64,000 bases of DNA, from assembly GCA_021829645.1 (NCBI GenBank), contig JAKBPI010000001.1:71206-135205 (forward strand). Direction: 5' to 3'. The notes under the pieces are model-generated. The model worked only from the letters and a program-made list of their open reading frames with translations, ran no database searches and had not been told where the DNA came from. Source of the stretch: Actinomycetes bacterium (GTDB lineage Bacteria > Actinomycetota > Acidimicrobiia > Acidimicrobiales > Bog-793). A program made the position numbers and the translations under genes. Shown one piece after another: positions 3,366 through 5,654 of the stretch (position 1 is the stretch's first letter; each line of letters opens with the position of its first letter).

Positions 3366-4151
3366 ATGTTTGCGCCTTTCATGATCAATGCCTGGATTAC
3401 GGCATCCGTCGTCGGCGTGGTATCGGCTGTGGTCGGCTTTTTTATCGCCGTCAGGGGTCAGGCTTTCTTGGCCCACGCTTTACCAAACGGAGCTTTTGCC
3501 GGGGCGGCTATGGCCAGCCTGGTAAATATCAATCCGCTTCTTGGACTTGGCATTTTCTCTGTATTCGGTGCCGGCATAATAGCCTTCCTCGAAAAAAAGC
3601 TAAAAAAAGATACGGCCACTGCGCTTGGATTCGTTTTGTTGCTGGCGATAGGTGCCTTGTTGCTCTCCCTGACGACTGAGTACTCTCAGCAGATTTTTGC
3701 ACTTTTATTCGGTGAGATTTTAGGGGTATCCTCAACCGAACTCCTGCCTACGGTAATTTTAGCCCTAGTAACCCTAGGACTGATATCTTTTGCTTACAGA
3801 CCTCTTCTGTACTCATCCGTCCTGGAAGAAGTAGCTTTTTCCAAAAAAGTATCTCCGGATATATATAACATCGTGTTCTTACTTATCGTGGCTCTTGTCA
3901 CCACAATGGCCATACCTGTGGTAGGGACCCTTTTGATCTTTACTCTTTTAGTGGCTCCTGCCGCAACCGCTCGTCTGATCTCCAAAACCCCTAAAACAGC
4001 TCTTTGGTTCTCAGTTGGACTTTCGCTCATCATCGTGTATCTATCGATAGCTATGGCCTATTGGTCTAACTGGCCAATAGGTTTTTTCATCGGTACTTTA
4101 GGAGTTGCCAGCTATGTTGCGGGTAAGCTTTACCAAAAAGTTACTTCATAG
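3366..4151 (+). CDS. znuB: Zinc ABC transporter permease (second copy)
   Basis: Second ABC-3 permease, 261 aa, with a matching conserved region GQAFLAHALPNGAFAGAA near residues 30-47. Its ATG follows the TAA of the first permease with no gap. The two permeases are clearly related but not recent duplicates, so a heterodimeric channel is likely. It is the last gene of the importer operon; no strong terminator was seen after it, and the accessory locus begins within 150 bases. Confidence 0.83.
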   Translation: MFAPFMINAWITASVVGVVSAVVGFFIAVRGQAFLAHALPNGAFAGAAMASLVNINPLLGLGIFSVFGAGIIAFLEKKLKKDTATALGFVLLLAIGALLLSLTTEYSQQIFALLFGEILGVSSTELLPTVILALVTLGLISFAYRPLLYSSVLEEVAFSKKVSPDIYNIVFLLIVALVTTMAIPVVGTLLIFTLLVAPAATARLISKTPKTALWFSVGLSLIIVYLSIAMAYWSNWPIGFFIGTLGVASYVAGKLYQKVTS

Positions 4152-4303
4152 CCCAAGCCTCCTGCAACACTTTAAACAAAAGTATTGTCAAATACTCATC
4201 TCCAGAACCCGAGGCAGCACGGTTAAATTGCCATTCACACAATAAGATCGCATAAACTAAACAAATCTCGCTCATCCGTCACCGGTACACAAGATAAAAA
4301 TAC

Positions 4304-4331
4304 TTGCGTTTATACACGTATCCTATATACT
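4304..4331 (+). promoter_or_regulatory. Promoter of RNA gene copy 1
   Basis: TTGCGT at 4304-4309, a 16-base spacer and TATACT at 4326-4331. Predicted start of transcription near 4338. The second copy has TTGCTT at 4647-4652 and TATACT at 4669-4674 with the same spacing; one of the only two repeat differences falls in the -35 box. Confidence 0.6.
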
Positions 4332-4337
4332 GTCATT

Positions 4338-4396
4338 AACAGAACCTGCCAGTGGGCCATGCGTGCATGACACGTATCCCCGGCAGGTCATTTTTT
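4338..4396 (+). ncRNA. Small hairpin RNA, copy 1 (candidate abiF-type RNA)
   Basis: About 59 nt. Outer stem ACCTGCC (4344-4350) with GGCAGGT (4382-4388); middle GGG (4354-4356) with CCC (4378-4380); inner stem ATGCGTG (4359-4365) with CACGTAT (4371-4377) closed by the loop CATGA. It ends in CATTTTTT, so the outer stem can serve as terminator. A structured RNA upstream of Abi_2-domain genes is known as the abiF RNA motif; whether this one fits that covariance model was not tested. A role as RNA antitoxin is inference. Confidence 0.6.
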
Positions 4397-4398
4397 AG

Positions 4399-4560
4399 TT
4401 TATCTACATAACCAAGTGACCTAACAGTCTTTGTTTGTGACTGTTTATTTTCACGATCCCAATACTTGGTAATAATAGATAAATAATCACGACCTCTGCT
4501 TTTACCAACCTTCAGTACAAGATGTAGGTCGTTATGACATATTCTGCCAGTAAACAGATC
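4399..4560 (-). pseudogene. Transposase N-terminal fragment
   Basis: Reading the minus strand from 4560 to 4399 gives an uninterrupted frame containing GKSRGRDYLSIITKYWD and TKTVRSLGYVDKL. This resembles the N-terminus of IS1634-type (IS4 superfamily) transposases. There is no plausible start codon, and the frame runs straight into the first RNA repeat, where the transposase-like sequence ends. It is best read as the relic of an insertion that split or rearranged the RNA-abi locus. Family assignment is by eye. Confidence 0.45.
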
Positions 4561-4641
4561 AAATACTTGACAAAAAATAATACCCCTAACAGGGATAAAA
4601 GGAGTTATTTCAGAAATTAGGTGTCAAAGCCATGAGATAAC

Positions 4642-4741
4642 AATACTTGCTTTTATACACGTATCCTATATACTGTCATTAACAGAACCTGCCAGTGGGC
4701 TATGCGTGCATGACACGTATCCCCGGCAGGTCATTTTTTAG
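4642..4741 (+). repeat. 100-bp direct repeat, copy 2
   Basis: Second copy of the unit at 4299-4398. Its last bases run into the ribosome site (AGGG, 4740-4743) of the abi gene. Confidence 0.9.
4681..4739 (+). ncRNA. Small hairpin RNA, copy 2, abutting the abi gene
   Basis: Same folding as copy 1: outer stem 4687-4693 with 4725-4731, inner stem 4702-4708 with 4714-4720, then six T at 4734-4739. The terminator ends ten bases before the abi ATG, so abi messages would arise by read-through. That order (RNA, terminator, nuclease gene) is the one used by RNA-antitoxin loci. The C-to-T change between copies lies in an internal loop and leaves all stems intact. Confidence 0.6.
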
Positions 4742-4749
4742 GGTTGAAA

Positions 4750-5654
4750 ATGACAAAGCCTTTTGACAAAAAGCCCCTTACCCATAAAGAGCAAGTGAAT
4801 CTACTGCGTAACCGCGGAATGATCATATCAGAAGAACATAGACATTTGCTGCAACACTTAAACTATTACAGACTGTCTGCCTACTGGAAACCTTTTGAAA
4901 CTGACAAAGAATCACATCAACTACAGAGTGGGGTGAATTTTTTATCCGTACTCGCCAGATATAACTTTGACTGCGAACTGCGCTTGCATTTATTTAATGC
5001 CGTTTCCCATATAGAAATTTCTTTTCGGGCCAACTTTGCTTATCAAATGTCTATAAATCACGGTCCTCATGCTCATCTTGATGAATCTTTATGGCGCTCA
5101 GAAGACATAGGGAAACAGAACCTATGCGAACTGCAAACCTCGTCAAACGATCGCATGAAGCATACATCAAGCACTTTCAGAATACCTACGAAGAACCACT
5201 CCCGCCCATATGGGCGCTATGCGAAGTCATACCCATGGGACTACTCTCCAAGCTATATGACAACTTGGCAACTGTCACAACGCGACAGTCCATTGCCGCT
5301 GTCTACAATGTTGGCAACCAAGAACTCAGTTCGTGGCTCCATAACTTAAATGTTGTCCGCAACATATGCGCCCATCATATGCGCTTATAGGATAGGACAC
5401 TTTCCGTTCCGCTGGCAATTCCCAAAAAACCACCGCCATCTCTTCGGGATACACTTTCAAAAACTCAGAATAATAAAATTTACAATACTCTCGTCATAGC
5501 CCTTTATCTCATGGACCGCATTGACAGTAAGCATCAGTGGCGCACTCAGCTTTTGCATCTGATTCGCCGCTACGAAGATATTCCCCTAACTCAGATGGGT
5601 TTTAGGGACGACTGGAACGAGAAGAGGATCTGGCAGAACGATCAAAAGGACTAA
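4750..5654 (+). pseudogene. Abi_2/AbiF-family HEPN abortive-infection protein, broken
   Basis: About 301 codons, the normal length for Abi_2 proteins. Frame one gives the N-terminal part (KPLTHKEQVNLLRNRGMII, LNYYRLSAYWKPF, FNAVSHIEISFR). A -1 shift between about 5088 and 5120 is needed to continue into RETEPMRTANLVKRS, LPPIWALCEV and the HEPN signature RNICAHH (R-x4-H). An in-frame TAG at 5388-5390 stands where the family has Trp (RLW), a TGG-to-TAG change; the frame then continues with family-like sequence to TAA at 5652-5654. HEPN proteins of this type are RNases that act on RNA in abortive infection or toxin-antitoxin settings. With two lesions the gene is probably dead here. The ATG at 4750 has AGGG six bases upstream. 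Confidence 0.75.

Follow-up and report, generated by a model that had tools for sequence, protein, structure and literature searches.

In the AbiF/RCd22 system of C. difficile, most transcription ends at a terminator placed after the RNA, and read-through makes AbiF (PMC12373285). The RNA, RCd22, neutralizes AbiF both in cis and in trans by binding it directly (PMC12373285). A second point of reference for the locus described here is a pair of insertion sequences, IS1549 and IS1634, for which variable direct repeats of 8-514 bp have been reported, with a terminal consensus, C-----YT, tabulated for IS1634 (PMC2266710).

We analyzed a 64-kb stretch of DNA, referred to below as the window, from a source genome available as a 2.1-Mb draft assembly. 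Taken as a whole, the locus that we describe in it is very probably a decayed, horizontally acquired abortive-infection (phage-defense) unit of the AbiF kind, whose second RNA copy came about as a long target-site duplication made by an IS1634-type element. It is a fossil of a known kind of system and not a new kind.

Results

Two 107-nt repeats that are 97% identical lie at 4292-4398 and 4635-4741, and no third copy was found in the 2.1 Mb of genome searched. The copies differ at three sites (4298/4641, 4308/4651, and 4358/4701), and each holds a structured RNA of ~58 nt that is preceded by a -10 box and has a U-run after it. Copy 2 stops 8 nt short of the abi start codon, the ATG at 4750. 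The initial annotation of this DNA had described much the same layout, with two near-identical repeats of ~100 bp (98%), each holding a promoter, a ~59-nt RNA of nested stems, and a terminator, and the second lying directly before an Abi_2/AbiF gene; our measurements bear this out.

4292-4398, plus strand: repeat copy 1, read as the left arm of a long target-site duplication, its right end cut by a deletion that would have taken most of the insertion sequence
4635-4741, plus strand: repeat copy 2, read as the right arm of the target-site duplication, starting at the nucleotide after the element terminus

The RNA had been linked in the initial annotation to the abiF motif, and the link holds when judged by models built from homologues and fails with the Rfam model. 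RF03085, the Rfam abiF model, has no match in the window and thus recognizes neither copy, whether applied strictly, at the gathering score, or permissively, at E <= 10. The annotation had named a missing abiF RNA hit as grounds for abandoning the idea, and this result, standing alone, would have been enough to abandon it. Covariance model R2, built from 19 AbiF-homologue loci with the window excluded, has exactly two matches in the 64-kb window, and model R3, in which the window is included, scores copy 2 at 47.7 bits.

4339-4396, plus strand: abiF-like RNA copy 1, hairpin and U-run (model R2, 29.7 bits, E 2.6e-6, a rough value, as are all E values of the models built in this analysis; fold)
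4682-4739, plus strand: abiF-like RNA copy 2, directly before the abi gene (model R2, 33.3 bits, E 2.1e-7, equally rough)

Beyond the window, R2 was applied to 90 AbiF loci and finds an RNA 5' of the abi gene in 77, of which 58 lie outside the model-building set; a related hairpin sits just upstream of the gene in nearly every close AbiF homologue examined. The Rfam gathering score for RF03085 is reached by 8 of 40 related loci, with several close homologues falling below the cutoff.

The predicted fold of both window copies is an identical nested hairpin of -24.7 kcal/mol (z of about -3 to -3.6), a stability equaled by 0 or 1 of 200 shuffled sequences. Covariation was assessed on 70 distinct RNA sequences taken from the R2 matches and aligned by structure with cmsearch; a MAFFT alignment that included the window was rejected, as it misplaced the inner stem of the window RNA. 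Compensatory changes in homologues, on which the initial annotation had staked its claim, are plentiful: 13 of the 17 pairs vary on both sides, and 93.9% of cells hold a pair. Covariation scores 0.244 on the model structure, compared with 0.082 after shuffling and no more than 0.070 when the structure is slid. Because the alignment is fitted to the model structure, the counts favor that structure, but both controls are exceeded by a wide margin. The window RNAs contribute to the compensatory changes, the third C-G pair of the outer stem being U-A here.

One element usual in these RNAs, a 3' internal loop of the CUCAAA type with five or six unpaired bases, is absent from both window copies, leaving five R2 positions gapped. 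The same shortened 3' side occurs in L031, L038, and L049, loci from Mariprofundus and other Zetaproteobacteria that have intact AbiF frames and the same fold without the 3' loop, and L031 encodes the closest protein found (49% identity). Because Zetaproteobacteria with intact AbiF frames share the shortening, the missing loop more likely marks a subtype than decay. By the model matches and the covariation, the window RNA is a divergent abiF-type RNA whose nearest counterpart is this zetaproteobacterial form, in which the usual 3' internal loop is missing.

Other arrangements of abiF-type RNAs came to light among the loci compared. L043, from Desulfuromonadales, has two adjacent abiF-type RNAs (2371-2433 and 2436-2486) ahead of one abi gene, both above the Rfam cutoff and apparently a natural tandem. 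L030, on a cyanobacterial plasmid, has one such RNA at 1257-1311, and visual inspection suggests a second, divergent hairpin at ~1420-1475, closer to the gene. In L059, from Methylococcaceae, a second RNA (3961-4014) lies 3' of the abi gene and possibly belongs to a second unit. Several AbiF relatives on phage contigs (L129-L139) have a different-looking upstream hairpin (ACCGGCTCGCTTGTATCGG...CCGGT), which may be a further RNA subtype.

A promoter for the RNA is indicated by comparative spacing. Among 79 homologous loci, 36 have a TATAAT-like hexamer at a distance of 7-8 nt upstream of the RNA motif, compared with 0-2 at other spacings, and TATACT stands 7 nt upstream of the motif in both window copies. 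The -35 region of the window RNA promoter is weak, and a consensus promoter scan did not report the promoter. The scan found no promoter-like site between the RNA and the abi gene; a hairpin with a U-run is present. Both RNA copies are probably still transcribable.

4326-4331, plus strand: -10 box TATACT of RNA copy 1 (comparative spacing)
4669-4674, plus strand: -10 box TATACT of RNA copy 2 (comparative spacing)

The order of RNA, terminator, and nuclease gene had been recognized from the start as that of RNA-antitoxin systems, and it matches C. difficile AbiF/RCd22 (PMC12373285). By analogy with RCd22/AbiF, a distant relative, most transcripts of the window unit would stop at the terminator and give the RNA, read-through would give AbiF, and the RNA would bind and neutralize AbiF. 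Alternatively, the hairpins could serve the abi gene only as terminators or attenuators and not act as antitoxins, which would suit a hairpin that ends in a U-run 8 nt before the abi ATG. We consider this unlikely, as conservation among homologues extends to internal bulges and loop nucleotides (AGGCUAUG, CUCAAA) that a terminator would not need, and binding of AbiF by RCd22 has been demonstrated (PMC12373285).

The downstream gene is an AbiF homologue that is no longer intact. Pfam Abi_2 (PF07751), searched across frames, is matched in two of them with 88.5 and 88.9 bits (cutoff, 25.6), and PADLOC calls the gene AbiD. The HEPN motif RNICAHH is present, as originally reported, and in an alignment of 10 sequences (the window and nine homologues) R203, N204, H208, and H209 are invariant. 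The gene is also broken, again as originally reported, and the lesions that we find are one frameshift and one stop codon. Sequencing error is possible, and the presence of two independent lesions makes it less likely. A profile-free scan of the genome contigs with the single read-through protein gave no match, and the profile scan gave matches. Homologous loci with an intact toxin frame do exist: L031, L038, and L049 each combine one with a single RNA.

4750-5654, plus strand: AbiF/Abi_2 pseudogene (ATG at 4750, final TAA at 5652-5654; PF07751 in two frames; PADLOC AbiD; alignment)
5133-5145, plus strand: frameshift, about one base lost (alignment with homologues)
5358-5378, plus strand: HEPN motif RNICAHH (R-x4-H), retained (alignment)
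5388-5390, plus strand: premature TAG, at the W of the homologues' RLW (alignment)

With respect to its origin, the unit has few counterparts nearby. An AbiF match was obtained in one of 146 relatives, a distant genome of the same order and another family, and this match is weak (33% identity, E 4e-7); none of the 39 relatives searched for such an RNA has one. The genes that flank the locus are ~210 bp apart in a congener, compared with ~1.5 kb in the window. Since AbiF and the RNA are nearly absent from relatives and the congener spacer is short, the RNA-plus-AbiF unit was most likely gained horizontally in this lineage.

The sequence between the repeats, 4399-4634, had been overlooked in the initial annotation and is the remnant of an insertion sequence.

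4399-4634, minus strand: remnant of an insertion sequence, probably IS1634-type (94% match between its end and copies at the C38 and C51 contig ends; N-terminal frame similar to C55/C13)
4399-4533, minus strand: N-terminal transposase-like fragment (NDLHLVLKVGKSRGRDYLSI...SLGYVDK), with similar fragments in the same genome (E 4.5e-8 to 1e-5)
4543-4634, minus strand: insertion-sequence end A, terminal region (...AGAAATTAGGTGTCAAAG plus 5 nt), recurring at contig ends

The terminal sequence AGAAATTAGGTGTCAAAG is also present at the C38 and C51 contig ends, and a second, inverted type of end, AATATTTAGGTGTCAAAGACGGG, is found at the ends of contigs C46, C49, and C28. Starting at element end A, the C46 flank is 100% identical to the C51 flank over 290 bp, and the C49 flank is 100% identical to the C38 flank over 371 bp. 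The two contig pairs, C46/C51 (L143, L146) and C49/C38 (L144, L147), most plausibly represent two insertions of a single type of element, each with a very long target duplication, the body and transposase of these sister elements being absent from the assembly and their two ends seen only at separate contig ends. For the third element end, on C28, no partner was found in the genome contigs. The 3'-terminal part of a reading frame seems to fall within the 371-bp duplication.

Both ends of the sister elements, CCCCTCTT and CCCGTCTT, fit the terminal consensus C-----YT. The left end of the window element is missing, so its two ends cannot be shown together. At the end that is preserved, copy 2 of the repeat starts at the very next base, GTCAAAGCCATG being followed directly by AGATAAC, where the sister copies have GTCAAAGAGGGG followed by AAG; the last five bases of the window element are CCATG, compared with AGGGG in the sister copies. 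The transposase fragment, which covers the first ~45 residues and is too short to be assigned to a curated family, matched none of them, NF033559 included; its relative on C55 gave no usable match in curated families, and plasmid tblastn found nothing. Other IS1634 transposases are present elsewhere in the source genome; a whole one on C19 was rejected as the source of the window fragment.

Discussion

Why the RNA gene is present twice is most simply addressed through the element that separates the copies. Because copy 2 starts exactly after the element terminus and sister elements make repeats of 290 and 371 bp, we read the second RNA copy as a target-site duplication. On this reading, an IS1634-type insertion sequence would have landed a short way 5' of the RNA promoter. 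With a target duplication of 107 bp or more, the insertion would have copied the RNA gene in full, so that an entire unit of RNA and abi gene remained to the right of the element. A later deletion would have removed the left end of the element, the greater part of the transposase gene, and perhaps some of the left duplication. The abi gene would also have acquired its frameshift and stop codon. Repeat identity is 97% in the window compared with 100% at the sister insertions, which fits an older insertion in the window. In the part of the literature covered, we found no paper in which a long target duplication is described as having copied a small-RNA gene.

It could instead be supposed that the RNA gene underwent an ordinary tandem duplication, perhaps favored by dosage, and that the insertion sequence landed between the copies afterwards. 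Tandem abiF RNAs do occur elsewhere, as in the two adjacent copies of L043 and the two motifs of C. difficile RCd22 (PMC12373285). Such a history would, however, require a coincidence, a tandem duplication followed by an insertion at the exact boundary, as copy 2 starts precisely at the element terminus, and elsewhere in the source genome this type of element makes duplications of 290 and 371 bp. We therefore regard it as very unlikely. Nor does the duplication call for selection for more antitoxin, given that target-site duplication by the insertion sequence explains it.

A separate matter is whether the surviving RNAs are maintained. One of the three differences between copies falls within the 58-nt RNA, in an unpaired bulge, and the remaining two fall in the 49 nt of the repeat outside it (Fisher p = 0.59). 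The original remark that the RNAs "still look functional" carries no weight, because the RNA has diverged no less than the rest of the repeat. At so low a divergence, drift by itself would leave an RNA that looks intact next to a 900-bp gene that is broken, and nothing in the comparison of the copies gives a sign that either is kept by selection.

These considerations bear on the idea that both RNAs are maintained antitoxins guarding against incoming AbiF genes, a form of anti-addiction, which we judge highly improbable. In its fuller form, which has an equally slim chance of being right, the orphaned RNAs would be retained in trans so that the cell accepts or survives phages and plasmids that bear AbiF, the insertion sequence having copied the antitoxin without the toxin. 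In its favor, the fold, -10 box, and terminator are kept in both copies, and RCd22 acts in trans (PMC12373285). Against it, the RNA has not diverged less than the remainder of the repeat, a mechanical process accounts for the duplication, and a close AbiF is absent among the 146 relatives. The hypothesis is possible but unsupported.

Read as a decayed unit with a target-site duplication, the locus widens the abiF RNA family, adding a subtype without the usual 3' internal loop together with many loci that the Rfam model misses. It also offers a clear case in which a long insertion-sequence target duplication copied a complete small-RNA gene, from promoter to terminator. This is a simple physical route to extra copies of an antitoxin RNA and, in principle, the same route could lead to the tandem RNAs discussed for the origin of Cas13 arrays.

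Among described systems, AbiF/RCd22 of the C. difficile prophage phi027 has the same order of promoter, RNA, terminator, and Abi_2/AbiF HEPN gene, with a hairpin directly before the gene (PMC12373285). It differs in that RCd22 carries two abiF motifs in one transcript (PMC12373285), whereas each window copy is a separate, complete gene with one hairpin; moreover, RCd22 matches RF03085 and the window RNA does not, and the window toxin gene is broken. Compared with the RF03085 motif itself, the window RNA has the same position, outer stem, inner stem, and bulge but is without the CUCAAA-type 3' internal loop, and its relatives score just under or over the Rfam cutoff. With IS1634/IS1549-type elements, the sister elements have long direct repeats in common, and their ends begin C-----YT (PMC2266710), although here the transposase body is absent from the assembly and the window copy is without one end. 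The zetaproteobacterial RNAs of L031, L038, and L049 share the short 3' side and nested fold of the window RNA and differ from it in having a single RNA copy, an intact AbiF frame, and a four-base loop.
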